Shown here: piece after piece, positions 44,150 through 59,962 of the stretch
Position numbering within the stretch: the stretch's first letter is position 1
Layout: the number at the start of each line of letters is the position of its first letter
Assembly (NCBI GenBank): GCA_030432235.1
Contig: JAUIHT010000001.1
Span: 620,001 to 684,000, forward strand
Length of the DNA: 64,000 bases
Direction of reading: 5' to 3'
From: Verrucomicrobiia bacterium
Lineage (GTDB): Bacteria; Verrucomicrobiota; Verrucomicrobiia; Opitutales; Cerasicoccaceae
Made by a program: the position numbers and the translations under genes
Notes under the pieces: model-generated
What the model was told of the DNA's origin: nothing
The model's database searches: none
The model's input: the letters and a program-made list of their open reading frames with translations, nothing else

Positions 44150-47100
44150 ATGAGAGATGACCTACAACCCTTGAAAAGAAAAGGCTTTGCGCTCATTGCA
44201 GCCATCGCGCTCATCGGCTTTGTGTTGATGATCATCATCGCAATGGCGACTCTGGTTCAGGTTGAGCTACAGACCGCAGGCGTCAACCGTCATCAAGCCC
44301 AAGCCAGGAGCAATGCCCTTCTGGGGGCGCTTGTCGCCTTGGGGGAGCTTCAGGAACTGGCGGGCCCGGATACACGCGTTACGGCCACGGCGAGCGTCAT
44401 GAACTCCTCCCCGGATGAATTGGACGGCATGGCGGGTATGACTGAGGAAAAAACACATTGGACGGGGGTCTGGGATGTCGTACACGATGAATCAAGCGAT
44501 ACCTATTCGCCTCAACTGCTGTCCTTTTTAGTATCCGGAATGCCGGAGTCTTCCGGCGAGGTTCTGGACGCAGTAAAAGCGTACGACGAGGGCGACCCGG
44601 ATGACTATGCGTCCTTGCTGGGCACAGGCTCTGTTAGTAGCGGCGGGGAAGTACATGCTAAAAAAGTCCCAGTCGGCGACACTGGCAGCTTTGCCTATTG
44701 GGTCAGTGATGAGGGCGTGAAGACACGTATCAACCTGGTGCCAGATGACATTCAATATGCCAATAGTCTCCCGGCAAGTCGTATCAAAGTGGCGGCTCCG
44801 GAAGCTTCCCCGGGCAGTGTCGTCGACGGCCTTGAAGAATACCCGGACAAGGATGATTCCGTAGAGCTGCTGATCGACAATAGCGCTCTGCCGCTGGCCG
44901 CCTCCGGCCTCGATAGGGATAATGTAGCCAGTCGATACCATGACTTTACCTTGTACTCGCTCGGATTACAGACGAACACGGCACAGGGCGGCTTGAAAAA
45001 GGATCTGTCACTTGCTTTTGAGATGACCGATCAGGCTTTTAACGACGATGAATACTTTGCCGGCGTACTCGAGTCTTCATCGACGGAGTACCCCTTTCTG
45101 GACCACAAGTTTAGCTACGTTTACAACAAGCCATTCGACCCGGCAGATCCTGCGTCTAAAACCATCCGGGGGCCGACTTGGCATGTCTTGCGCAATTACT
45201 ACCGCCAATACTATGATGTGGCGACAGTAAGCGGGGCACCGGTCTATGATGCCCATGTTGACATGCCTCTACCCGAACATAATGACTGGTATGACTCGGG
45301 ATGGACCATCCCGGTTCTTTACTCTTTATACAGGAAGAGGCATGGAGACCCCATTACGACGGACGAGCCGGTTATTGAGAGCAACTGGTTGGGCCAGCCC
45401 CTGAATATTCGCCCGACGGAAGGTGCGGTCACTCCCATTGTCACCAGGGTACAAAATATTTTCAGTATGCGGGCAAGGCCGCTAACACAGACGGAGAAGG
45501 AGACATGGCCCCCGGGTGGGGCAGCATCCGGGCATACGCATCAGTTGCAGATTGTCTGGGACCCGATCGTGACAATCTGTAATCCCTATAACGTCAACCT
45601 GAAGTTTGAAGGCCTTATCCTTGAGATCGGCTTGTTGCCCATTAATGTCCATATTACCACGGCATATCCCACTTACCTCTTTGATAGCTTAGGAGTAACT
45701 CATCCGGGGGGCAGTGATTTGCCTACAGTAAGTAAGGAAGGCGGACTGGAACTTTATGCGCATAGCGCTCCTTTTCATCAAATTCTTGGGCATGCGTGGG
45801 ATGACACAAACGATTGGATATCCAGTACAGAAACCATCATCTTTAAAATTGGCGAGAAGTCGGGCCCAATTACAATGAAGCCAGGAGAGGTGCTTGTCTA
45901 CTCATTGGGTGGAAATAGCCCCATAACCTACCATGGGGACGGTGCAAAAACCGTAGAAGCAGTACCCGGGTTTGATGGTACCAGCGGCTTTGCCTTTGAT
46001 ACGGGCATTACCGGTTCTCCGAGTGAGGCGACCAAGCGGAACCTGGAGCTATCCATAGAAAGTTACAGCAAGGCGGAAGAGCATTCATCGCTTACCTATT
46101 TTCTGGTCGAGGACTGGTCCAAAATTCCTGAGGATAGTGGAGGTACTGGTTCTTCAAAGGATACACCGGGATCGGTTTACATGGGTAGCGCATGGCCGAG
46201 AGAGCCTCAGGAGGATGATTTCGGGCGTGTCCCCGAGGATGCGGGCGATGTTATCAAGCTTTCTTTTCAGGATCTGGGTACCGAAAAAGAAGTCATCGCT
46301 CAACTGGATTACTATATGAAAGCAAGCGATGTTACTCGTGAGTCGGTATCGCTGGGAATCTATAATAATCCACGTGCGCGTTCATTCACCACGCTCGGTA
46401 AAGACCCCGTTTACAAGACGTCTGATCCCTTGTGGGGCTACCGGCTGCATGAAGTCACCTCCATCATCGACCTGGCCAATGCCAGTACTGATAATCATGG
46501 CTATTGGGGAGAGTCGAATGCGAGTGGCACCTCCTATGTGTCATTATTTGAAGTCCCAACAGCTCCGCTTTCTTCGCTAGGGCAGCTCATGCATGCCAAT
46601 GTGTCATTCCGTGGCCACAACTCGATGTACACCGTGGGTACTTCCTATGCCTCGCCTTACATTCCCAAAGACGAATACTTTGTAGAGATTCCCCATTATA
46701 ATAAGTTCGGTTTTAAAACTGATGCTGTTGTGCCGGATATTGGCTATTTGATGAACGAAGCCCTATGGGATGGTTACTTCTTTTCAACGCTTACTCCGTC
46801 TTCCGATCTGCTTTATGGGGAGGATGGTGGTGTTGACAGTACGTTCACCGGGTACGTGCAGGAATTTGTCGAAGGAAGGCGCAAGCTGCCGAATCAACGC
46901 ATGGCCCTACTGGACGCCATCTCGTCCGATGAGTTGGCGGCACAAATGGTGGCAGGCGATCAGGTAAGTCCCAATGCATACAAGAGCATGGCTGGCTATG
47001 TCGGCGTACAAGGGGCGTTTAATGTCAACTCCACGTCGGTGGAGGCATGGAAAAGCATGCTTTCCAGCCTGCGTGATGAGGCAATGGTTTACTTTGATGC

Positions 47101-47779
47101 GGAGGGGACAGCTTATTTGGCCGAGGAAAACGACATACAGACACCGTTTGCCAAGTTCACGTTGCCAAACGGGACTCGCTCGGACGCATGGCGTGGCTAT
47201 TCGACACTCGATGATGGGCAGATTACCGAATTGGCGGAGAATATCGTAGCACTGATTCATGAGCGCGGGCCGTTTCCAACACTGGCTTCCTTTGTGAACC
47301 GCGAACTAGCCACAGGAGAGTCGGGACTGGCGGGAGTCATCGAGGCGGCCATACAATCATCGAGCAAAATAAACCAGGAATTCTATAGCGACGGGTTAGG
47401 AGCGGACCCGGATATTCTGCTCGAGAAGGAAAATATCAATCGCTATGGAACCAGTGCGAGCCTGCCTCAAGAAGTTGGCGTTGCGGGCTTCCTGACCCAG
47501 GCGGATATCCTGATGGCCATTGGCGGAATGATTAGTAATCGGTCTGACACCTTTGTTATTCGCTCTTATGGTGAAGTGTCGGACCCGCTGACTCAGCACA
47601 CGCAAGCAGAGGCCTGGCTGGAGATGGTTGTCCAACGTGTGGGCGTGCCCGTTGAGCCATCTTCGACCGACCCGCTTGCGCCAGAATATTTCACCCCTTT
47701 AGAGGATGAGAACGGCAACAGCTTGGGGCGCTCATTCCGGATTGTATCCATACGCTGGCTCAGCAAGGAGGAAGTATGA
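44150..47779 (+). CDS. Verru_Chthon cassette protein A-like prepilin-type protein
   Basis: A 1209-residue protein resembling Verru_Chthon cassette protein A (TIGR02600), a family seen only in Verrucomicrobia. Residues 1-33 are a prepilin-like leader and membrane helix: 'LKRKG|FALIAAIALIGFVLMII', without the Glu at +5, as in PilX/GspK-type minor pilins. The rest is a large extracytoplasmic domain with 'VTRVQNIFSMRARPLTQTEK', 'WDPIVTICNPYNVNLKFEGL' and 'GVQGAFNVNSTSVEAWK', segments that recur in the family. The usual partners B, C and D of the cassette are not adjacent. It overlaps the next gene by four bases (ATGA). A pilus-like secretion or adhesion role is likely, not proven. Confidence 0.8.
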   Translation: MRDDLQPLKRKGFALIAAIALIGFVLMIIIAMATLVQVELQTAGVNRHQAQARSNALLGALVALGELQELAGPDTRVTATASVMNSSPDELDGMAGMTEEKTHWTGVWDVVHDESSDTYSPQLLSFLVSGMPESSGEVLDAVKAYDEGDPDDYASLLGTGSVSSGGEVHAKKVPVGDTGSFAYWVSDEGVKTRINLVPDDIQYANSLPASRIKVAAPEASPGSVVDGLEEYPDKDDSVELLIDNSALPLAASGLDRDNVASRYHDFTLYSLGLQTNTAQGGLKKDLSLAFEMTDQAFNDDEYFAGVLESSSTEYPFLDHKFSYVYNKPFDPADPASKTIRGPTWHVLRNYYRQYYDVATVSGAPVYDAHVDMPLPEHNDWYDSGWTIPVLYSLYRKRHGDPITTDEPVIESNWLGQPLNIRPTEGAVTPIVTRVQNIFSMRARPLTQTEKETWPPGGAASGHTHQLQIVWDPIVTICNPYNVNLKFEGLILEIGLLPINVHITTAYPTYLFDSLGVTHPGGSDLPTVSKEGGLELYAHSAPFHQILGHAWDDTNDWISSTETIIFKIGEKSGPITMKPGEVLVYSLGGNSPITYHGDGAKTVEAVPGFDGTSGFAFDTGITGSPSEATKRNLELSIESYSKAEEHSSLTYFLVEDWSKIPEDSGGTGSSKDTPGSVYMGSAWPREPQEDDFGRVPEDAGDVIKLSFQDLGTEKEVIAQLDYYMKASDVTRESVSLGIYNNPRARSFTTLGKDPVYKTSDPLWGYRLHEVTSIIDLANASTDNHGYWGESNASGTSYVSLFEVPTAPLSSLGQLMHANVSFRGHNSMYTVGTSYASPYIPKDEYFVEIPHYNKFGFKTDAVVPDIGYLMNEALWDGYFFSTLTPSSDLLYGEDGGVDSTFTGYVQEFVEGRRKLPNQRMALLDAISSDELAAQMVAGDQVSPNAYKSMAGYVGVQGAFNVNSTSVEAWKSMLSSLRDEAMVYFDAEGTAYLAEENDIQTPFAKFTLPNGTRSDAWRGYSTLDDGQITELAENIVALIHERGPFPTLASFVNRELATGESGLAGVIEAAIQSSSKINQEFYSDGLGADPDILLEKENINRYGTSASLPQEVGVAGFLTQADILMAIGGMISNRSDTFVIRSYGEVSDPLTQHTQAEAWLEMVVQRVGVPVEPSSTDPLAPEYFTPLEDENGNSLGRSFRIVSIRWLSKEEV

Positions 47780-48447
47780 AAGCTTTAAAGTGCCTGGTCA
47801 TTATTTTTTGCTTTTCCGCGCTGACAGGATTTTCGCAAGAGGCAAATATTAGCATCCAGTTTACCACATTAAGCTGGGAGCGGATGAGGGGCGAAAAGCT
47901 CTTCTTTCAGTCGTATGGGCAAGAGCCGACTGAGATAACCCTAAGTCCTCGCCGTCGTTCTGAGGCCTATCGCTATGTTGGTCCCAGCCCTTTAGTATTC
48001 TTTAAAAAGGTTACTAATGCGGAAGGCGAGATCGTACAGATGCCTGTCACCAGTGTGGCAATTTCTCCGGAAAAGAATGATCAGTTGTTCCTGTTTGTGC
48101 GCTCTAGCGACGGGGCTCAGACCAAGATATACCCTATGGATGACAGCGAAAGCAATTTTCCGCCAGGGAGTGTTCGTTTTTTTAATATGACCAGTCGGAA
48201 CCTCGGGGTAATCTATGATGGTGAAAAAATCCCATTGCATCCCTATGAGATGAGGACCGCCTCTTCAAAGAATGAGTTTAAGCGGGTTAATTTGGCGATT
48301 CTGGCGATCCGAGATGAAGAGTTGAGAGACATCTACAATGCCCAATGGGGTCAGTCCAGCCATAGCCGCTACCTCATATTCATCAAAGATTCCGAGATGC
48401 GTATAGACGGTGTCGAAACCAAATCCATTGCGCAGCATTTTCGTTAA
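47776..48447 (+). CDS. Secreted protein of unknown function, coupled to Verru_Chthon A
   Basis: A 223-residue protein with a signal peptide ('CLVIIFCFSALTGFSQ') and no recognised domain. The mature part is beta-rich: 'ISIQFTTLSWERMRGEKLFF', 'VRFFNMTSRNLGVIYDGEKI'. The phrase 'PGSVRFFNMTSRNLGV' is like the inosculation-type beta-sandwich domains found beside prepilin-like proteins. Its ATG overlaps the Verru_Chthon A stop codon (ATGA, 47776-47779), so the two are translated together and may interact. I do not assign a function. Confidence 0.7.
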   Translation: MKALKCLVIIFCFSALTGFSQEANISIQFTTLSWERMRGEKLFFQSYGQEPTEITLSPRRRSEAYRYVGPSPLVFFKKVTNAEGEIVQMPVTSVAISPEKNDQLFLFVRSSDGAQTKIYPMDDSESNFPPGSVRFFNMTSRNLGVIYDGEKIPLHPYEMRTASSKNEFKRVNLAILAIRDEELRDIYNAQWGQSSHSRYLIFIKDSEMRIDGVETKSIAQHFR

Positions 48448-48534: not shown

Positions 48535-48580
48535 TTACGGCCTCTTGTAGGCATTGTCTGAACTTTTATTTCTCCTACTA

Positions 48581-50098
48581 ATGAAAACCCTAGTCATTAC
48601 TCCATTCGTCACCGCACTGGCATTGAGCACATCGCTGCTCGCAAGCAACCAAAACAAGATTGGTGTCGGAGACATCAACCAACCAGTCGATGGTCCCGCG
48701 CCCGCCTACGACTACGATGAAGCGAATATTGATGATTACGTTCTGGTTAAGAATTGGGATTTTGGTGGCAAGGGCACCATTGGAAACATTCAAGAAATGA
48801 GCGACGAGTTCCAATACCATGACCAGTTTGGAACGATTGCCAATGGCACCAAGTATGGGGCGTTTATTGTCGCTCCTGACCGCGAAAACGCTTTGAAGGG
48901 TCAGCCAATTGAGGGTGAAAACACAGACCGAAAAGTGAGGGAGTTTACCAGCGATAGCCTGAAAACTTACCTCGTTGGCCTGGATGGAGCCGAGGAAGTT
49001 CACCCCAAGAATAATAAAGCCGGTAACGGCTCGTTTCAGGCTAAATGGACTCTCCCCACGGGTGGCTCTCTCCTCGGGAAAGATTTAATTTGGGAAACCA
49101 GGGTTCGCTATGAAACGCCACCTTATTTCTGGTTCGCCATTTGGACTGCCGGCAACAAATGGAATCGAGGCGCCGAAATGGATCTGATAGAAAGTTTCGG
49201 CTGGGACAACGGTGGTGGCCGTACGAATTATGATGGCGATTATTGGCATTCGTCCGTTGTTGCCGGAAAAAATGGATTCGCTGAAACTAATTATCACAGG
49301 GATTGGATAGGGGCCATGAAGAGTTATGGCATTACCGATTTTGATGCCTCGGAGTACCATGTCTGGACCTGGGTCTATCGTGCCGATGACACCTTCACCG
49401 CTTTCGTGGATGGAATACCTGTACAGCGTGGCGCTACTCCCTGGACTCTTGGCGCCAAAATAAACGGGGAGCCTTTAGATATGAGCTTCATCTTCGACGG
49501 GTCCTGGGGGCATCGCGAAGTTTCGAGCGTAAACCATCCGCTGCTCGTAAGTGAACTCGAAGGAAAGTTTTATGAATGGGATTATAGCCGGGTTTATTTA
49601 CGTGATGCGACGGATTCAAAAAGCATCTATAGAACGGATCCGATCACGACACTGGACCTTTCTGACTCTGATGTTCAAATGGCCCTAAGCCCTCACCAAA
49701 ATGCAGAGGTGCGTGTGGAGACCGATTCTGAAGGGAAGGATTGCGTGCGCATCGTTTTCGAAAAGGGCAATTACCCGGGTATCGTTCTGGAGCCAGCGGG
49801 AGGCTTTGATTTATCCAAATACTCGGAAGTGGATGTTTTACTAACCAATACAGGAAGCAGCCGCGTTGGAATCACGGCCCGGTTGGACAATGAGGGCGAT
49901 TGGCAGCAAAAGCCTTATAGTGCTTCGGCCGTAAGCCTTAGCCCCGGTGAAACAAAAAATGTAACGATTGAGTTTGGTAAGACTTTTGGTAAGGCAGGGC
50001 ACAACCTGGACCCTAAGGCGGTAAAGCAATTCATGCTCTTCGCCAATACTCCGGATGCTCCAGGAAGCATATTGATCAGTTCTATAAATGCGAACTAG
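48581..50098 (+). CDS. Secreted GH16-family glycoside hydrolase with C-terminal CBM-like domain
   Basis: A 505-residue exported enzyme. Signal peptide 'FVTALALSTSLLASNQ'; GH16 jelly roll from ~35 to 340 with catalytic motif E199-M-D-L-I-E204 (ExDxxE), aromatic platform 'YFWFAIWTAGNKWN' and closing 'KFYEWDYSRVYLRD'. Residues ~350-500 are a beta-sandwich, probably a carbohydrate-binding module ('YSEVDVLLTNTGSSRVGITA'). It is a clear paralog of the GH16 at 39321, sharing 'VKNWDFG', 'FQYHDQFGTIANGT' and 'GNGSFQAKWTLP', but lacks that protein's N-terminal modules. ATG 48581 is chosen for the signal peptide; a TTG at 48554 is in frame. A 15-bp motif lies 46 bp upstream. Confidence 0.88.
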   Translation: MKTLVITPFVTALALSTSLLASNQNKIGVGDINQPVDGPAPAYDYDEANIDDYVLVKNWDFGGKGTIGNIQEMSDEFQYHDQFGTIANGTKYGAFIVAPDRENALKGQPIEGENTDRKVREFTSDSLKTYLVGLDGAEEVHPKNNKAGNGSFQAKWTLPTGGSLLGKDLIWETRVRYETPPYFWFAIWTAGNKWNRGAEMDLIESFGWDNGGGRTNYDGDYWHSSVVAGKNGFAETNYHRDWIGAMKSYGITDFDASEYHVWTWVYRADDTFTAFVDGIPVQRGATPWTLGAKINGEPLDMSFIFDGSWGHREVSSVNHPLLVSELEGKFYEWDYSRVYLRDATDSKSIYRTDPITTLDLSDSDVQMALSPHQNAEVRVETDSEGKDCVRIVFEKGNYPGIVLEPAGGFDLSKYSEVDVLLTNTGSSRVGITARLDNEGDWQQKPYSASAVSLSPGETKNVTIEFGKTFGKAGHNLDPKAVKQFMLFANTPDAPGSILISSINAN

Positions 50099-51970: not shown

Positions 51971-53233
51971 TCACCCCGGTATCCAGAAAGAGGTTTGTTG
52001 AACCAGGGGTTCCGGGTAGCCTTCGACTTCGATTTCAATAACGGTACCGAGAGGGTCGGGCAGGGGATCGACCAAGTCATGGAGAAAGAGTCGATCCTTT
52101 TCCTGTTGAAACGAAATCTCGCCGCCGCCATCCAGATAGCGGGCGCTAAGTACCCTGTTTTTAACTTCCGCAAGGCAGAGTGTTTTGCCTGGGCTGCATA
52201 TGACGATCAAATAGACCTTGTTGCCTCGCATCGTGAGCAGTCCCCAATTGTTCCATGAGAAGGGGCAGTGCTCCGTACCGTAAATGGACGCACCGTTTCG
52301 CTTCAGCCAATCGCCGGCCTGATGAAGCATTTTAGCAGACTCCTCCGGTACTGATCCATCTGCTTTAGGGCCGATGTTGAGGAGGAGGTTGCCTCCCTTA
52401 TTGGCCGTTTCACAGAGCATCTGGATTATGGAGGCAGCGTTTTTCCAATGATAATCCCCGGCGTGGTACCCCCAGTTACGGTTAAGTGTCATGCATGCCT
52501 CCCAGAGTTGTCCCTTGGGGCCAGGCTTGATAGCCTGCTCGCTGATATGAACATGGGAAGGCGGGCCGTTGCGCTCATTTATGAGAATGTCGGGCTGGAG
52601 CCGAAGCACCTCTTCGTTCACGACTTGGCTTTGCAGGTTGTTGGGGATACAGCCATCGTACCACAGGTAGTCGATCTTGCCATAGTCCTTCATGAGCTCG
52701 ATAAGTTGAGCCCGATAGAACTCGATGAAGCGCAGGCGTGCTTCCTCATCCCGCCAGTCGCTGTCGCCGGGCCAGTCCCGGTAGTAGGCGCCGGGATAGT
52801 CAGGGTGGAACCAGGAAGCGGGCGAATAGTAGAAACCTACCTTCAGGCCTGCGCTGCGAAAAGCCTCAACGAAGGGGCCAACAAGGTCTCGCTTGGGACC
52901 AAGTCTGCCGGCATGGAAATCGTCAGCTTTGGTAGGCCAGAGGGCAAAGCCGTCGTGATGGCGTGTCGTCAGTACGGCGTACCCCATGCCCGCATCTTTG
53001 GCCAGCGCAGCCCAGGCCGATGGGTCGTATTGCTCTGCGCGGAAGTTGTCCACGTACAGGCGAATGTACTCCTCTTTGGGAATTCTTTCACGGTTGGACA
53101 CCCACTCGCCGCGCGCGGCGGCAGAATAGGCGCCCCAGTGTATAAACATCCCATACCGGGCCTGATTGAACCAGGCATGGGATTTTGAAAGGCCGTCTGA
53201 CTTACTCAATTGGTTGTCATGGATGGAGCTCAT
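51971..53233 (-). CDS. GH29 alpha-L-fucosidase
   Basis: A 420-residue GH29 enzyme that removes alpha-linked L-fucose with retention. 'WFNQARYGMFIHWGAYSAAA' and 'LTTRHHDGFALWP' are the family hallmarks; the nucleophile is D193 in 'IDYLWYDGC', and 'NKGGNLLLNIGPKADGSVP' closes the barrel. The C-terminal ~90 residues are a short beta-sandwich. I place the start at ATG 53233, which removes ~98 unrelated N-terminal residues that belong to the overlapping end of the upstream gene. No signal peptide is seen, so the enzyme is probably cytoplasmic. It lies 29 bp after the beta-helix gene in the same operon. Confidence 0.92.
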   Translation of the reverse strand: MSSIHDNQLSKSDGLSKSHAWFNQARYGMFIHWGAYSAAARGEWVSNRERIPKEEYIRLYVDNFRAEQYDPSAWAALAKDAGMGYAVLTTRHHDGFALWPTKADDFHAGRLGPKRDLVGPFVEAFRSAGLKVGFYYSPASWFHPDYPGAYYRDWPGDSDWRDEEARLRFIEFYRAQLIELMKDYGKIDYLWYDGCIPNNLQSQVVNEEVLRLQPDILINERNGPPSHVHISEQAIKPGPKGQLWEACMTLNRNWGYHAGDYHWKNAASIIQMLCETANKGGNLLLNIGPKADGSVPEESAKMLHQAGDWLKRNGASIYGTEHCPFSWNNWGLLTMRGNKVYLIVICSPGKTLCLAEVKNRVLSARYLDGGGEISFQQEKDRLFLHDLVDPLPDPLGTVIEIEVEGYPEPLVQQTSFWIPG

Positions 53234-53262: not shown

Positions 53263-56200
53263 TTACTGAATTTGAAGATTCGTCAAAGAGAATGTAGCGC
53301 CGGTACTCGCATTGCCGGACGGGACTAACGCGACCATTTTCAGGAAGCCTCCATTGGCATTCAAATAATCGGTAAAGTTTTGAATCTGAGTAGCGGATTT
53401 TCCGCTCATCGCAAATGTAGCCGATACGGGTGTGCCGCTCGCGGTAAAATAGTCTCTCAAAGATTCCGTGGATGAGCCCGAGGTGGCGCTCAAACCGACA
53501 GACAGGCTGTTCGTGAATCCTGTACAAGTGTAGTCGAAGGTCAGTACCAGGCTGGAAACTTGTTGGGTGGTAATGGAGCCCGGGGTCCAGCCCATCTGCG
53601 CCGCGATATTGATATCGTCTGTAGTTATCCCACCAAAGTTCGTGTTGATGGAGGCCCCGGTTGTGTTGCTTAGCACGAGGCCCGGCTCGCTGCCTATGGC
53701 GTTTTGCTGGGCGGTAATCGTTATGTCGTAAGCCGTGTTGCCTTTGTAATAGAGCTTGTAGTCTGCAAAGGCTCCCGTGGGCTGGAGGGTGGATGTTAAA
53801 TACTGTCCTGAGCTACCGGAAAGAGTGAGGGTGTCGGAGCCACTACCGGTGACATTCAGGAAGTTTTCAGTCCAGGATAACGACAGGCTCAGCCATAGGT
53901 CGGCAATCGCGAGCGAGGCTCCAGTGCTGGTATAGCCGCTTGGCAAAAGTACCGTTACTTTAAGCAGTCCATTGTTGGCATTCAGTATATCCGCAAGATC
54001 CTGCAGATCGGTGTCAGATTCCAATGAGGCATAATAGGCTGCGGTTACCGGGCTGCTGGAAGGGGCGAAGCTGTCTTTGATTGTTTTGTTGCTGCTGCCA
54101 TCTGATGCGCTTAGCCCCACCGACATCCAGTTACTTGGAAAGCCGCTGTTACGGTAGTCGAAGAGTAGCACCAGGGCGCCGACTTGCTCCTTGGTGATGG
54201 AGCCCGGGCTCCAGCCCATGATGCTCGCAATGTCGATTTCCGAGGAAGTTATTCCCCCGAAGTTAGTGTTGATTGAAGTCCCGGCGTCATTGGAGAAAAC
54301 CAATCCGGACTTGCTGCCGACTGCGGAGGGCGTTGCTGTCAGGGAGACGTCATAAGCGGTGTTGCCTTTGTAATAGAGGACATAGTCGGTATCGCCGCCC
54401 GTGGGTTCCAGAAGGCTGGAACCGTACACGCCTGCTCCGCCGATCAATGAAATGCTATCCGAGCCTGTGCCGGTTACCTGGTCGAATGTATCGCGCCATT
54501 CGTACGTGACGCTGGGGACAAGGCCTCTCAACAGTGCCAGGTCATGCAGGCCGAGCTCACGCAGGTGATCAAGACCGGAGGCGATGGCCTCATAGTCGGG
54601 ACTGGTCAAAGTGGACGGAGTATCCGCAATGAGCGAGTAGGTGCCGGAGGCATTCAGCGTATTCAATACTTGGATGAGGTTGGCGCCGCTTCCCAGATTG
54701 ATGATTGGAGCAGCCACATTGAAGCGATCCAGCGCGAGGATTAGGTCGAAGGGATTTGTGCCCGTATGCGTGATTCTGGATGCAGCTGATTTTCTGTCAT
54801 TGTCGAACGATTGCGGGCCGTAGAACAGGCGCCCTTCATAGTCGTTGACGTACACTGCGGTGTTGTCACCCCAGGCATCGCGCTTAAAGCCCTGCAGGGT
54901 GACACGACCCGTCCAGGTGACATCGCCGTCTTCCATGTACAGGTTATTGAAGGTCTGCTCATTGTAGTAGTCGCTGATGACAAGGTCCTGGTTGTCGAGA
55001 ATGCTGATGTCGTATAGACCGGTATCGTCTTCCTCCAGCCAGAGGACGCCGCTATTGGCATAGAGGAATCCAAGGAAGCCTGTTTTGGGCTGAGTGTCGC
55101 CTAGAATGATCAACCGGCTGACAGGCACCCGATTGCCGAAAATGGTCGCGGGACCAGAATCCTGAACCGTAAGATGATCGTGCAGCTCTGTAATGTAAAC
55201 GGTCGCGCCGCTGGGCAACGTGTCCAGGACGACACCACCGGAATCACCGAGACGGAGGATTTCCGAGGGGGTGGTGTTATATTTTCGATGCCAGATTCCA
55301 TCGAGATTCAGTTTGCCCGGGCTGTCTGCGGTAACGGTCAACGTATTGGTCCCATTGGTCGTATCGGTGGTTTTGATAATGAAGTCTTTCAGGGTGATAT
55401 TACCGGGATTGTCCACTTCAAATACGTTATCGTTGTCCGCACCGTCCCAGCAGAGATGGGCCCAGTATCCGCCGCCCTCGATCGTGTAGTTGTTGCCTTC
55501 GACATCGAGCGTGGAGCTGATTTTATACGTGCCAATAGGCAGGTAAACGATGCTGTCGTTGTTGGCGCTTCGTGCGTCATCAATAGCCTGTTGGATGGCT
55601 GCGGTAGCATCGCTGCTGAAGTCGTTTGCGGCATTGTATGGTGACTGGGTTACGTCCAGGATTTGAGTGCCATCTGCAATAGGAGTGGAGTCCAGAAATA
55701 CATGCTCGGGGCTATCCAGCAGGGAAGTGAGCCCGACCTCAGGAGTTGCCGGCGCCACATCGACGACCAGGAGCTCGGCACTGCCTCCGTTGGCGCCGGT
55801 TTGAACCATGGAGCTTTGTGTGGAGAATCCATCGCAGCTATTGTTGGAGACAAGGAGGGTATGGGGTTCGTCCGAGCTATAGTTATGAATGTTAATCGGT
55901 GGATTGCTGTTCGGTGGATTTGTGAACTTGCAGTCGAAAATCATGTTCGAGGATTTATCCCCAAGGCGTATCGTTCCGCTGTAGACTCCAGTCCGCGTTT
56001 CCGTCCAGGAATCCACCCAACAGTCCTGGACGACGTGCTTGTAGCCGCCGCCGATATGAAGAGGCATGGCCAGAAAAGACTTGGAATTCGTGGAAATGCA
56101 GCGACGTACACGCAGATTGCCTCGGCTGGTGATATCGGTGTTGCTCGAGTTCTCGAACCGTGTGTCGTATATCATCTGGGAATTGTTATTCCCGGCATCG

Positions 56201-56916
56201 ATGGCGGTATCGCAGTCTTCGAAGTGGCTCGCTTCAACGATGTATTCGTAGTTGTTGTAGTAGGTGGAGCCAATTCTCAATCCGTATTCGCAATTATAGA
56301 ATAGGCAGTTCCAGATGTCTGCCTGGCCGCTCCACTCAAGATTCGAAGGATTGGAAAAGTTTAGGGCCGGACCGGTAAAGTTGAGAAACGCCTCGTTGAA
56401 ATGCTTTATCGGTGCTTCCGCGATGCCATAGGTACTGTTATGGGGTTCAAAGAGGAAAGCGCGCTCCGCGATGTCGCGGCCATCCCATTGCAGTCCAATG
56501 TAGCGGGCTTTGGAATTGCCCGTGGACATAAACATGGTGCCTCCGGTGGCGCCGTGCCATTCTAGTGTGGTATTGCTGCCACAGCCAATCAGGCCACGCC
56601 CGGATATGCCATAGGAACCAGTCGTCCAGGAGAGTGTGCTGGAAATTTTGTATGTGCCCGCCGGGAAGTATACCGTCATCCGGCTGCTGGAGGCTGAGGC
56701 CAGATCCAGGGCCTCCTGAATGGCTGCGGTGTCGTCCGTTGTACCGTCACCCACCGCGTGTGTGGTCAGGCTAGAGTCTGTTTTGACGTTTATCCAGTCG
56801 GAGCGCTCTGTACAACTCATAGGCGCAATAGTAACAGACTGCGCCTGAGATACTGAATATAAAATAGTAAAAAATAATATAATCAGGATCTGTTTGAGTA
56901 GGGTTGTTTTTTTCAT
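53263..56916 (-). CDS. Secreted double beta-helix protein with tandem C-terminal repeat domains
   Basis: A 1217-residue exported protein. Signal peptide 'ILIILFFTILYSVSQAQ' (start ATG 56916; the frame continues upstream but overlaps the esterase). Two Pectate_lyase_3-type modules follow: the first opens 'GDGTTDDTAAIQEALDLA' (~55), the second 'DATAAIQQAIDDARSANNDS' (~440), each with 'P.GTYKISSTL'. The C-terminal ~410 residues are two copies of a ~203-residue domain (54500-53890 and 53875-53266) sharing 'YYKGNTAYD', 'SINTNFGGIT' and 'MGWSPGSIT/MGWTPGSIT'. Polysaccharide-lyase or structural roles are possible; no catalytic residues can be assigned. It stands between the esterase and the fucosidase in one operon. 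Confidence 0.8.
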   Translation of the reverse strand: MKKTTLLKQILIILFFTILYSVSQAQSVTIAPMSCTERSDWINVKTDSSLTTHAVGDGTTDDTAAIQEALDLASASSSRMTVYFPAGTYKISSTLSWTTGSYGISGRGLIGCGSNTTLEWHGATGGTMFMSTGNSKARYIGLQWDGRDIAERAFLFEPHNSTYGIAEAPIKHFNEAFLNFTGPALNFSNPSNLEWSGQADIWNCLFYNCEYGLRIGSTYYNNYEYIVEASHFEDCDTAIDAGNNNSQMIYDTRFENSSNTDITSRGNLRVRRCISTNSKSFLAMPLHIGGGYKHVVQDCWVDSWTETRTGVYSGTIRLGDKSSNMIFDCKFTNPPNSNPPINIHNYSSDEPHTLLVSNNSCDGFSTQSSMVQTGANGGSAELLVVDVAPATPEVGLTSLLDSPEHVFLDSTPIADGTQILDVTQSPYNAANDFSSDATAAIQQAIDDARSANNDSIVYLPIGTYKISSTLDVEGNNYTIEGGGYWAHLCWDGADNDNVFEVDNPGNITLKDFIIKTTDTTNGTNTLTVTADSPGKLNLDGIWHRKYNTTPSEILRLGDSGGVVLDTLPSGATVYITELHDHLTVQDSGPATIFGNRVPVSRLIILGDTQPKTGFLGFLYANSGVLWLEEDDTGLYDISILDNQDLVISDYYNEQTFNNLYMEDGDVTWTGRVTLQGFKRDAWGDNTAVYVNDYEGRLFYGPQSFDNDRKSAASRITHTGTNPFDLILALDRFNVAAPIINLGSGANLIQVLNTLNASGTYSLIADTPSTLTSPDYEAIASGLDHLRELGLHDLALLRGLVPSVTYEWRDTFDQVTGTGSDSISLIGGAGVYGSSLLEPTGGDTDYVLYYKGNTAYDVSLTATPSAVGSKSGLVFSNDAGTSINTNFGGITSSEIDIASIMGWSPGSITKEQVGALVLLFDYRNSGFPSNWMSVGLSASDGSSNKTIKDSFAPSSSPVTAAYYASLESDTDLQDLADILNANNGLLKVTVLLPSGYTSTGASLAIADLWLSLSLSWTENFLNVTGSGSDTLTLSGSSGQYLTSTLQPTGAFADYKLYYKGNTAYDITITAQQNAIGSEPGLVLSNTTGASINTNFGGITTDDINIAAQMGWTPGSITTQQVSSLVLTFDYTCTGFTNSLSVGLSATSGSSTESLRDYFTASGTPVSATFAMSGKSATQIQNFTDYLNANGGFLKMVALVPSGNASTGATFSLTNLQIQ
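53266..54500 (-). repeat. Intragenic tandem repeat of a ~203-residue domain
   Basis: Copy 1 spans about 54500-53890 (opens W-R-D-T-F) and copy 2 about 53875-53266 (opens W-T-E-N-F). Shared segments include 'GSGSDTL'/'GTGSDSI', 'YYKGNTAYD', 'SINTNFGGIT', 'GSIT', 'SVGLSA' and 'STGA'. The units are diverged but clearly homologous over their length. Confidence 0.85.
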
Positions 56917-56950: not shown

Positions 56951-56971
56951 GTGGACTTATCAGGAGTCCAC
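56951..56971 (-). other. Hairpin across the esterase stop codon
   Basis: GTGGACT-N7-AGTCCAC forms a 7-bp stem whose loop contains the esterase stop codon (56960-56962). No T-tract follows, and the next gene starts 44 bp on, so it is more likely an mRNA-processing or stability element than a terminator. Confidence 0.35.
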
Positions 56972-58471
56972 GGGAGGGAAAAGGGGCTCTGTGAGATGGT
57001 AGGTAACGGTTGAAACGGTTGTGGGGACGCGGTCTTCCTCGACATCCGATATGAGGATGAACCAGTCCACATCTTGTTTCGCGATGTCCTTGGGAAGTGT
57101 TAGCTCGTAACGGCTTTTCAAGCCGTCCCCGCCCAGAGGTTGCGCCGTCTCGTCCAGTTTGATCCATTTGCGCTGCGGCCATTTTGTGGTGGGGGTGCTG
57201 TAGTAGAGCTCTGGTTCTTGCAGCTTGAGATCGCTGGCCGCGTCCACAGTGAATTCAATTTGGATGCTGCCGTTGAGCCTGGATGCAGGTTCGCCTTCGA
57301 TAGTGATGCTGGGCAGAGGCTTGCCTTCGCCTTTCAGGTAGTAATCGAAAAACGCCTCTTCCATTTGCAGGAATGAGCGCTTGCCAGGGATGTGAGAGCC
57401 GTCCGCATTTTGGGAGCCTCCCGGGGTGCGTGCCTGGTGGCTGGTATTCGGTGAAAACTGCAGGTTCTTGCTTTTTGCGCTCGTGATGGCCTGGTAAGTT
57501 TTGGTGACGGCGGGTGGCATAAACCAGCCATCGTTGGCCGCGGCTGCGATGTAGAAATGCGCTTTGATATTATCCGCCCGCCGGCCGGCATCCAGGTTGG
57601 TCAACCATATCTCGGCTCCATCCGGGTCTTGAAGAAAGCGGGACACCGGACTGTCCGGAGCGATGTACTTTTGAAAATCGGAATCCTCGTCGTAAAAGCC
57701 GCTACCCCATACGGAAAAGCCGGCCTCGACGCGGTCGCCGAGCAGCCCACAGAGCATGGTGGTGGAATAGCCGCCCCAGGATTCGCCGACGATACCGAGC
57801 TTCTTCGGATTCACTTCAGGCTGTGTCTTCAGGAGGGCGAAGGCCTTCAGGGCGGTGGCTTCGGCAGTATAAATCCAACTGGCCTTGGGCTCGGGTGTGA
57901 CCGTGAACCGCAGCGGAGTAAGCTCGTTGTAGGAAACAGAGCGCCACGTGCCGCTGGAAATAGTGCCCTTGTCTCCAGCGATTCCGGGAAGGTCGCAAGA
58001 AACCGCAACATAACCAGCTTTTGCCCAGGCGAGAGTGCGGTAATAGATGCCGCCAACCTGCGCGCTGCCACCACCGCCATGTAAGAGGAGAATACCGGGA
58101 AGCTCATGGTCGGGCTGGGCATTCTGAGGTATGGCAATGATGCAGAAAACCTCCGTGTCGTCATGATAGGCGCCGTCCAGGAAGACGGGAGCGGATTTAA
58201 ACGTTACAAACTCCAGCACAACTCCGTCTCTGACCTGCCTTCCGCCACGTATCTGATGCATGGTCTCGCCGTTGTTCTTGATGATGGTAGTCTCCTCGAC
58301 CGGTGTTGTCTGCGGTGCGATTCCTTGGTCAATGTCTTTGATCAAGGGCTCGAAGATGTCATTTGCTTTTGAAGCACAGAGCGGTAGGGGAGCGTGTAAT
58401 ACGAACAGGAAAGATACCAGGGTGAGGACTGCTTTTTGAGGGCTGCAAGCGCTTATCAGTGGGGAACTCAT
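56960..58471 (-). CDS. Secreted alpha/beta-hydrolase (acetyl xylan esterase-like)
   Basis: A 503-residue exported esterase. Signal peptide 'LTLVSFLFVLHAPLPLCAS'. The alpha/beta-hydrolase core has an oxyanion-type 'GILLLHGGGGSAQ' and the nucleophile S231 in 'GIVGESWGGYST'. Asp and His of the triad probably lie in 'YIAAAANDGWF' and 'SPNTSHQARTPGG'. The C-terminal ~100 residues form a beta domain. Related enzymes deacetylate xylan or other glycans (CE7- or acyl-peptidase-like). I chose ATG 58471; ATGs at 58504 and 58513 are also in frame. It heads the operon that continues with the double beta-helix protein and the GH29 fucosidase, which suggests de-esterification of the same glycan. Confidence 0.82.
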   Translation of the reverse strand: MSSPLISACSPQKAVLTLVSFLFVLHAPLPLCASKANDIFEPLIKDIDQGIAPQTTPVEETTIIKNNGETMHQIRGGRQVRDGVVLEFVTFKSAPVFLDGAYHDDTEVFCIIAIPQNAQPDHELPGILLLHGGGGSAQVGGIYYRTLAWAKAGYVAVSCDLPGIAGDKGTISSGTWRSVSYNELTPLRFTVTPEPKASWIYTAEATALKAFALLKTQPEVNPKKLGIVGESWGGYSTTMLCGLLGDRVEAGFSVWGSGFYDEDSDFQKYIAPDSPVSRFLQDPDGAEIWLTNLDAGRRADNIKAHFYIAAAANDGWFMPPAVTKTYQAITSAKSKNLQFSPNTSHQARTPGGSQNADGSHIPGKRSFLQMEEAFFDYYLKGEGKPLPSITIEGEPASRLNGSIQIEFTVDAASDLKLQEPELYYSTPTTKWPQRKWIKLDETAQPLGGDGLKSRYELTLPKDIAKQDVDWFILISDVEEDRVPTTVSTVTYHLTEPLFPPVDS

Positions 58472-58981
58472 TGATAAAGTTATTGAAGATTTATATGTAG
58501 GCATAATTTGCATAACACTTGTTTTGTCAATCCTGTAATCATAGAGGCTGGCTGCTTGCGGTAGTGATGCCCATGTGGACACGTACGTAAGTCATGAGCG
58601 GGGCACTGATAGAAGCTGCATTACGTTTATGCTTGCTGACGAATACGGGAATAAGGCTGGCTAAGATGGTTTCTCCTGATTTAGCCTCTTGGGGAGCCAG
58701 CTTAGTAACTGTGAGCATTTCATTGGGGTTAGTTGCCCCATAGCCACCACATTGATATCCCCAATGCTTACTGTCATGTACTGCGTAAATGGCACCATGC
58801 GCGTAGCGGGCGCGCTACTTTTCTCCGGTGAGAGGGCAATGTTTGCAGGGGCTGTCTACGCTCTCATAGCTGCTCATCGCGCAGTCGAATGCAGCAGATC
58901 ATTTTTCCTGAAATCATCATTGACTTGCATAAAGTTATGTGAGTTATTTAAAGAAGCAAAACAATAATATACCCTAAAAAT
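58472..58981. other. Divergent intergenic region of about 510 bp
   Basis: No convincing gene is seen between the esterase (minus) and the PEP-CTERM gene (plus); a 92-codon frame at 58689 has no family resemblance. An 8-bp inverted repeat, CATTGGGG (58721-58728) and CCCCAATG (58759-58766), lies inside. Promoters for both units must be here. Confidence 0.55.
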
Positions 58982-59962
58982 ATGAAAACACTCCGCTCCA
59001 AAACCTCATCCATCCTGTCTCGTACGCTTGTTGCTTTGAGCATGATTGCCTTGCCGGCTACTATGTCGGCTTCGACTATCTTTGAAGCGAACTTCAACGG
59101 CAGTGGCAGTGGCACCGGCGGCCCCAGCGATATCGTCCAGTATGGTGGCACCGGTTCGTTCGTTTCTAACACGGACTCCACCACGACGATCGAGTCCACC
59201 CCAACAATGGGCCAGGGAAACTTCGTGCAAGTTATCAATGGCGCCTCTACCGGCTTTCGTATCGGCAGGCTGGCAGACTTTACCCCGGCCAGTGCGGGTA
59301 ACTCATTCGCTGCCATGAATACGGTAGGTGCCAGCACGGTATCCCTGCATGGCGGCTTTGATTTCTTTACCCGCATTAACTCGGTCTCGTCCGGTTTTGA
59401 GTCTGTGCAAAACTGGTTCCGTCCTTTCGATGTTGGGTCTACTTCAGACGGTGGTATTCGGCTCATATTTAATACACTGGATAACAACAAGCTTCGACTT
59501 CAGGTTGGTACAGCCGCAGACGGTATATCAGGTGCTCAGGCCTCCAGTCTGGCATTTTTGGATGTCGACTATACCTTGTATTCCGGCAGTGAAGTGACGC
59601 ATCATATTGGAGCGACTTTTGAAACTAATGGCGGTACGGGTGAAGTTACCATGAAGGTTTTTGGCCAGCAGGGTACCGGCGCTATTGATACCTCAAGCGG
59701 AGAGCTGGGCAGCCTGACCTTCACCATTCACTCCAACGTGGTTACAGCGGGTTTGCCTAGCGGTACTTTTCAGATGCATACGGGTTGGTATGGTACGGCC
59801 AATAATGTCACCTCTGACATCGACTATGATGCGCTGCGCATGTATGACGCGATGCCCTCCAGTTTCTCCGCTATTCCCGAAACCAACGTGGCTTCCTTGC
59901 TGATGGGTATTACCGGTTTATTGGCTGGCGGGATTATCGTACGTCGTCGCAGGACGCGCTAA
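58982..59962 (+). CDS. PEP-CTERM-like surface protein (IPET variant)
   Basis: A 326-residue exported protein. Signal peptide 'LVALSMIALPATMSAS'; tail 'FSAIPETNVAS', helix (LLMGITGLLAGGIIV) and 'RRRRTR'. The third motif position is Thr. The body opens 'FEANFNGSGSGTGGPSDIV' and is a LamG-like beta-sandwich with 'NWFRPFDVGSTSDGGIRL'. It is homologous along its length to the tailless protein at 60772, which lies two genes downstream. It starts a unit with the pseudopilin (46 bp later) and the GH42-like gene. A surface glycan-binding role is inferred. Confidence 0.8.
   Translation: MKTLRSKTSSILSRTLVALSMIALPATMSASTIFEANFNGSGSGTGGPSDIVQYGGTGSFVSNTDSTTTIESTPTMGQGNFVQVINGASTGFRIGRLADFTPASAGNSFAAMNTVGASTVSLHGGFDFFTRINSVSSGFESVQNWFRPFDVGSTSDGGIRLIFNTLDNNKLRLQVGTAADGISGAQASSLAFLDVDYTLYSGSEVTHHIGATFETNGGTGEVTMKVFGQQGTGAIDTSSGELGSLTFTIHSNVVTAGLPSGTFQMHTGWYGTANNVTSDIDYDALRMYDAMPSSFSAIPETNVASLLMGITGLLAGGIIVRRRRTR

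Follow-up and report, generated by a model that had tools for sequence, protein, structure and literature searches.

The window, that is, the whole 64,000-nucleotide stretch of DNA analysed here, contains on its minus strand a reading frame for a protein of 1269 residues, P0001 (53263..57072), that ends in two head-to-tail copies of one module. Copy 1 (53884..54507, minus strand) covers P0001 residues 856-1063 (208 aa) and copy 2 (53266..53883, minus strand) residues 1064-1269 (206 aa); the stop codon (53263-53265, minus strand) lies directly after copy 2. The true start of P0001 is probably the ATG at 56916 (ORF residue 53), as it is followed by a stretch that looks by eye like a signal peptide, MKKTTLLKQILIILFFTILYSVSQAQ (56839..56916, minus strand). 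Between the signal region and the modules lies a double right-handed beta-helix (54508..56838, minus strand; residues 79-855) with two PF12708 matches and a GH55-like architecture. The modules start just past its predicted C-terminal helix (54526..54600, minus strand; residues 825-849, model residues 747-771).

The duplication at the C-terminus had been proposed in a first-pass annotation of the sequence, and our analysis confirms it. The two copies share 52% identity over 206 positions, with a local alignment score of 561, whereas 500 shuffles gave 45 +/- 8 and a maximum of 81, and the same pair occurs in a paralogue. The motifs named in that annotation were each located once per copy: YYKGNTAYD at P0001 residues 900 and 1108, SINTNFGGIT at 933 and 1141, and GSIT at 957 and 1165. 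Their spacing sets the period of the module at 208 residues, so that the earlier estimate of about 203 residues was slightly short, although its location (53266-54500) was right within 7 bases. The beta-helix said to precede the domain is also present, in the form of two Pect-lyase (PF12708) helices. At the DNA level, the copies are 55, 74 and 38% identical at the first, second and third codon positions, respectively. The difference between second and third positions indicates that selection acts at the protein level and, as the third positions are near the level of unrelated sequence, the tandem duplication appears to be old.

Genes that surround P0001 point to polysaccharide degradation. Downstream, a GH29 alpha-L-fucosidase is encoded at 51971..53233 (minus strand), with its start ATG at 53233, 29 bases past the stop codon of the module. 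Upstream, the stop of an alpha/beta-hydrolase gene (esterase-like; 56960..58582, minus strand; both Pfam scores just below the cut-offs) lies 43 bases before the likely P0001 start. A hexapeptide-repeat protein and an unnamed 347-residue protein are encoded further downstream on the same strand. Two sulfatases, a GH2 protein and a protein with F5/8-type C and fn3 domains are found on the opposite strand or further off, and a GH38 protein, a third sulfatase, a beta-helix protein and an MFS sugar transporter lie further off. An exported-looking protein (58982..59962, plus strand) has by eye a PEP-CTERM-like C-terminus. Another secreted-looking protein (48554..50098, plus strand) contains an EMDLIE stretch that we take to resemble a GH16 active site; searches of Pfam, NCBIfam and PDB sequences gave it no match within the limits applied.

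A double beta-helix on a GH55-like plan

The part of P0001 that carries the modules was modelled from the P0001 sequence and seven relatives (pLDDT 78.7, pTM 0.86). The model has two tandem right-handed beta-helices with a linker, a feature of GH55 that P0001 shares with the beta-1,3-glucanases PcLam55A (3eqn), CtLam55 (5m5z) and MnLam55A (8jhh). The best Foldseek match was 3eqn (E 1.2e-8), and the best PDB sequence-profile matches were likewise GH55 (1.9e-21 and 4.6e-20). GH55 chains align across both helices, over 506-527 residues with Z 16.2-17.5 (5m5z: Z 17.5 over 527 residues; 3eqn: Z 17.4 over 516), whereas the other aligned proteins among those shown cover about 260-320 residues, single-helix proteins reaching Z 19.6 over about 300.

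P0001 differs from GH55 in catalytic spacing. According to PMC10637969, GH55 enzymes have a Glu, then, 22-23 residues on, the general-acid Glu, and a Tyr three residues further. The pattern E-x(18-28)-E-x2-Y, a test of spacing made without structure superposition, is not found in the 784 residues of P0001 that were scanned, and the E-x22-E-xx-Y spacing of GH55 is thus absent. The pattern does match four of the seven other rows of the alignment, and P0002, the paralogue, once, at no common aligned place in the second helix. The polar residues invariant in the GH55-like group include E219, N273, Y275, D313, R323 and R324, and also D693, N694, D701, Y703 and E705. Given the GH55-like architecture and the absent spacing, we describe the helix part as built on a GH55-like plan and do not class it as GH55; the double-beta-helix proteins that share this combination are possibly an unclassified enzyme family. 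Records from Verrucomicrobiota, Planctomycetota, Lentisphaerota and Armatimonadota include members of the double-beta-helix group.

Distribution of the module and the slot that it occupies

The paralogue P0002, encoded elsewhere in the same genome, is 48% identical to P0001 over its whole length and has the same layout of signal region, double beta-helix and tandem module pair. With w for the P0001 copies and p for those of P0002, the identities are 52% for w1-w2, 41% for w1-p1, 39% for w1-p2, 44% for w2-p1, 43% for w2-p2 and 35% for p1-p2. Motifs conserved in the module include YYxGNTxYD and MGWxPGxI. The tree of the four copies, which bears on the order of tandem and gene duplication, has a support of 57% and long branches. 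P0002 lies at a contig end in a stretch of 46% G+C (C9:104000-114022), while two other stretches of that contig have 53-58% and the window 55%; tetranucleotide use differs too. The stretch may be an island of recent acquisition or a join made during assembly.

Profile searches of other exoproteins, suggested in the first-pass annotation, found the module convincingly on P0001 and P0002 only, that is, on two of the six PF12708 reading frames of their own genome. A profile of the four modules was run against overlapping samples from the family, order, class and phylum and matched 1 of 10, 2 of 273, 4 of 384 and 4 of 387 genomes, respectively; beyond the own genome, none of these samples held a convincing copy, and the remaining matches were weak and judged to be chance. 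One of these (G396, 7.3e-4) fell on a reading frame that we presume to be MurB-like. Others fell in a reading frame of 53 residues (G734, 0.004), on 38 residues within a long protein (G694, 0.007) or in frames with one (G639, 0.005) or three (G232, 0.007) internal stops. Two matches (G443 and G517, 0.0025) to 40-42 residues of a small secreted protein were rejected in the same way; the stretch, at model positions 37-78, is the sole weak match that could be a remote beta-sandwich relative. Single pattern scans, which require close matches and may let distant copies escape, gave 60 pattern matches in the species-genome collection and 108 in viral contigs, none of them confirmed. No copy was found in plasmids and phages by tblastn, nor in any of the genomes of seven double-helix relatives (0/7, a set without a positive control).

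We then compared what follows the double helix in related proteins. Eighty loci were kept. Of eight that were read over their whole length, seven went into the comparison; L026 was left out, since its match spans a smaller share of the query and its C-terminal end does not resemble the rest. These seven relatives from named records, and one from the same family (G003), were aligned or placed in a tree with the helix part of P0001. Among the ten double-helix proteins compared (P0001, P0002, L014 and L019-L025), the module pair under study follows the helix in two, P0001 and P0002. The position is empty in four (L014, L020, L021 and L025), and it is unreadable in two, at a contig end in L022 and because the frame ends early in L024. 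The remaining two carry another unnamed module, A4, in one copy (L019) or two (L023). In the helix tree, P0001 and P0002 are sisters, joined by L019 and then L020, an order with full support; the placement of L023, which has a long branch, is uncertain.

A4 and a related module, A6, are 185-225 aa long and occur in one to three copies at the C-termini of beta-helix proteins (L019:3280-3975, L023:8224-9540 and, on the minus strand, L102:1366-3420). A4 had no convincing match in Pfam or PDB, and is related to the triple repeat that ends another beta-helix-like protein in G009 (hhalign 1.6e-9). A4 thus sits in the same place after the double helix as the module under study, yet a sequence relation between them is undetectable: hhalign gave P = 0.41 against A4 and P = 0.29 against A6, while the positive control, A4 against A6 with equally small alignments, reached 1.6e-9. 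Unrelated modules at one junction of related proteins are what accessory binding modules would produce, and on the sequences compared the site directly after the double helix behaves as an add-on slot. Such swapping is a clear case of add-on domain exchange.

A partial structure for an unnamed module

The first-pass annotation considered the domain unnamed, and the searches bear this out. In Pfam, neither module had a family at E up to 5, nor did that part of P0001 at E up to 1; NCBIfam matches to P0001 were confined to the helices; and PDB sequence searches gave nothing convincing, the four-module profile reaching 0.28 at best. No description of the module is apparent in the titles and abstract openings of the papers that our literature searches listed. 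The strong match to a known carbohydrate-binding module (CBM) or adhesion family that would have spoken against a new domain did not appear, in searches that include a model confident for half of the module only. The modules of P0001 and P0002 are probably the founding members of a small, CBM-like orphan family with a narrow known distribution.

The structure prediction proposed earlier was partly successful. An AlphaFold model built from the two window copies has a mean pLDDT of 57.5. Residues 85-208, with block-of-ten averages of 56-91, form a predicted beta-sandwich with one longer helix. Confidence falls below 50 in residues 1-84, the part with the whole of one of the two best-conserved motifs and most of the second, and no ligand-binding residue could be placed on reliable structure. 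Foldseek gave no match at E 0.001. With a second aligner, the confident half aligned with CBM15 (1gny: Z 5.9, rmsd 3.2, 110 residues), a porphyran-binding CBM (8xmz: Z 5.9, rmsd 3.3, 95 residues), CBM22 (4xup: Z 5.6, rmsd 3.8, 106 residues), CBM29 (1w8w: Z 5.5, rmsd 2.8, 89 residues) and CBM6 (1uy0: Z 5.3, rmsd 3.3, 93 residues). These values are non-specific, as Z below 8 may reflect merely a common arrangement, and the same list has folds that do not bind glycans in the range of the CBMs: Cry11, which heads it (Z 6.4), reelin, MAM domains and latent TGF-beta. The CBM-like alignments of the model therefore support a fold class and not a function. Beyond the Z of 5-6 to the partial model, the module resembles these beta-sandwich CBMs in its enzyme-like carrier and its tandem arrangement. 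It differs from them in having no sequence family match and, at about 208 aa, is longer than the aligned chains (1gny 153, 8xmz 137, 1w8w 140, 1uy0 130).

Possible functions of the tandem module

On balance, we lean towards the tandem being a pair of accessory, non-catalytic beta-sandwich domains that bind polysaccharide, on a secreted double-beta-helix enzyme that degrades it. Carbohydrate binding is plausible because the partial beta-sandwich is near many CBMs, the slot is swappable and the neighbouring genes are those of polysaccharide degradation. The pair is kept in the paralogue and absent from relatives that retain the catalytic part. In the mechanism that we propose, the signal peptide would export P0001 and the double beta-helix would hold a catalytic cleft. 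Binding of the modules to this polysaccharide, or to a glycan closely associated with it, would keep the cleft near an insoluble or gel-forming substrate, and two linked copies would raise avidity.

The earlier annotation had proposed carbohydrate binding or surface attachment; the first has become a plausible prediction, and the second gained no specific support, with neither an anchor nor a sorting signal in sight. A C-terminal domain that retains the protein at the cell surface or guides its export is, in our estimate, unlikely. The module does form the extreme C-terminus of both proteins and is found only on exported-looking ones, and terminal beta-sandwich domains act in sorting in other systems. 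However, a sorting domain would be expected on many exoproteins, and the restriction of the module to two proteins of its genome, together with the lack of an anchor, makes attachment less likely. P0001 and P0002 end a few residues past the last strand of the module, with no PEP-CTERM or type IX sorting features and no transmembrane tail, although a PEP-CTERM-like end is seen in the neighbour noted above; P0001 has no NCBIfam sorting-domain match, and sister enzymes lack the module or carry another. A role in stabilising or assembling the double beta-helix, as a structural cap or an oligomerisation domain, would account for the position directly after the C-terminal helix, and terminal domains of beta-helix tailspikes trimerise. 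Yet nothing is added after the helix in four relatives whose C-terminus can be read, and capping needs no pair of near-full-length repeats, so we regard this role as improbable, a little more so than attachment.

Common ancestry with A4 and A6, with the sequence diverged beyond recognition, would explain the shared position, similar size and tandem copies, but the hhalign values given above, set against that of the control, and a search of nine genomes that found no A4 match in the own genome leave it a rather slim prospect. We give very little credence to an independent catalytic domain of unspecified activity. Its 208 residues have several conserved polar positions; however, D41 and D53 are the sole invariant acidic positions in the four sequences known, no acidic cluster is evident and the modelled half has a fold class that binding domains typically show.

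If the tandem is a pair of polysaccharide-binding domains, its ligand may be suggested by the gene neighbourhood. GH29-sulfatase clusters in Verrucomicrobiota target sulfated fucose polymers, according to the account of these clusters in PMC8857213, and by analogy the substrate would be a sulfated fucose-containing polysaccharide. The same paper reports that the genomes studied there have no laminarin loci, which, though it says nothing on the genome analysed here, fits a substrate other than that of GH55. A more ambitious version, which we offer only tentatively, is that the tandem is the first pair of a new CBM family for sulfated fucose-containing algal polysaccharide, on a new enzyme family that combines the GH55 architecture with another active site (E219 in helix 1; D693, D701, Y703 and E705 in helix 2). 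If its ligand is an algal glycan with sulfate or fucose, the module would provide a new binding reagent and a substrate clue for an uncharacterised enzyme group. Taken by itself, the domain is rare and of an ordinary kind, and its interest lies mainly in its combination with the unclassified GH55-like carrier group.

A large prepilin-like ORF and a small exported-looking ORF lie near each of the two module genes (window 44150..48447, plus strand; P0002 locus L004 384..4459, minus strand). The prepilin-like ORF at the P0002 locus weakly resembles Verru_Chthon cassette protein A (TIGR02600, E 0.002, far under the cut-off).
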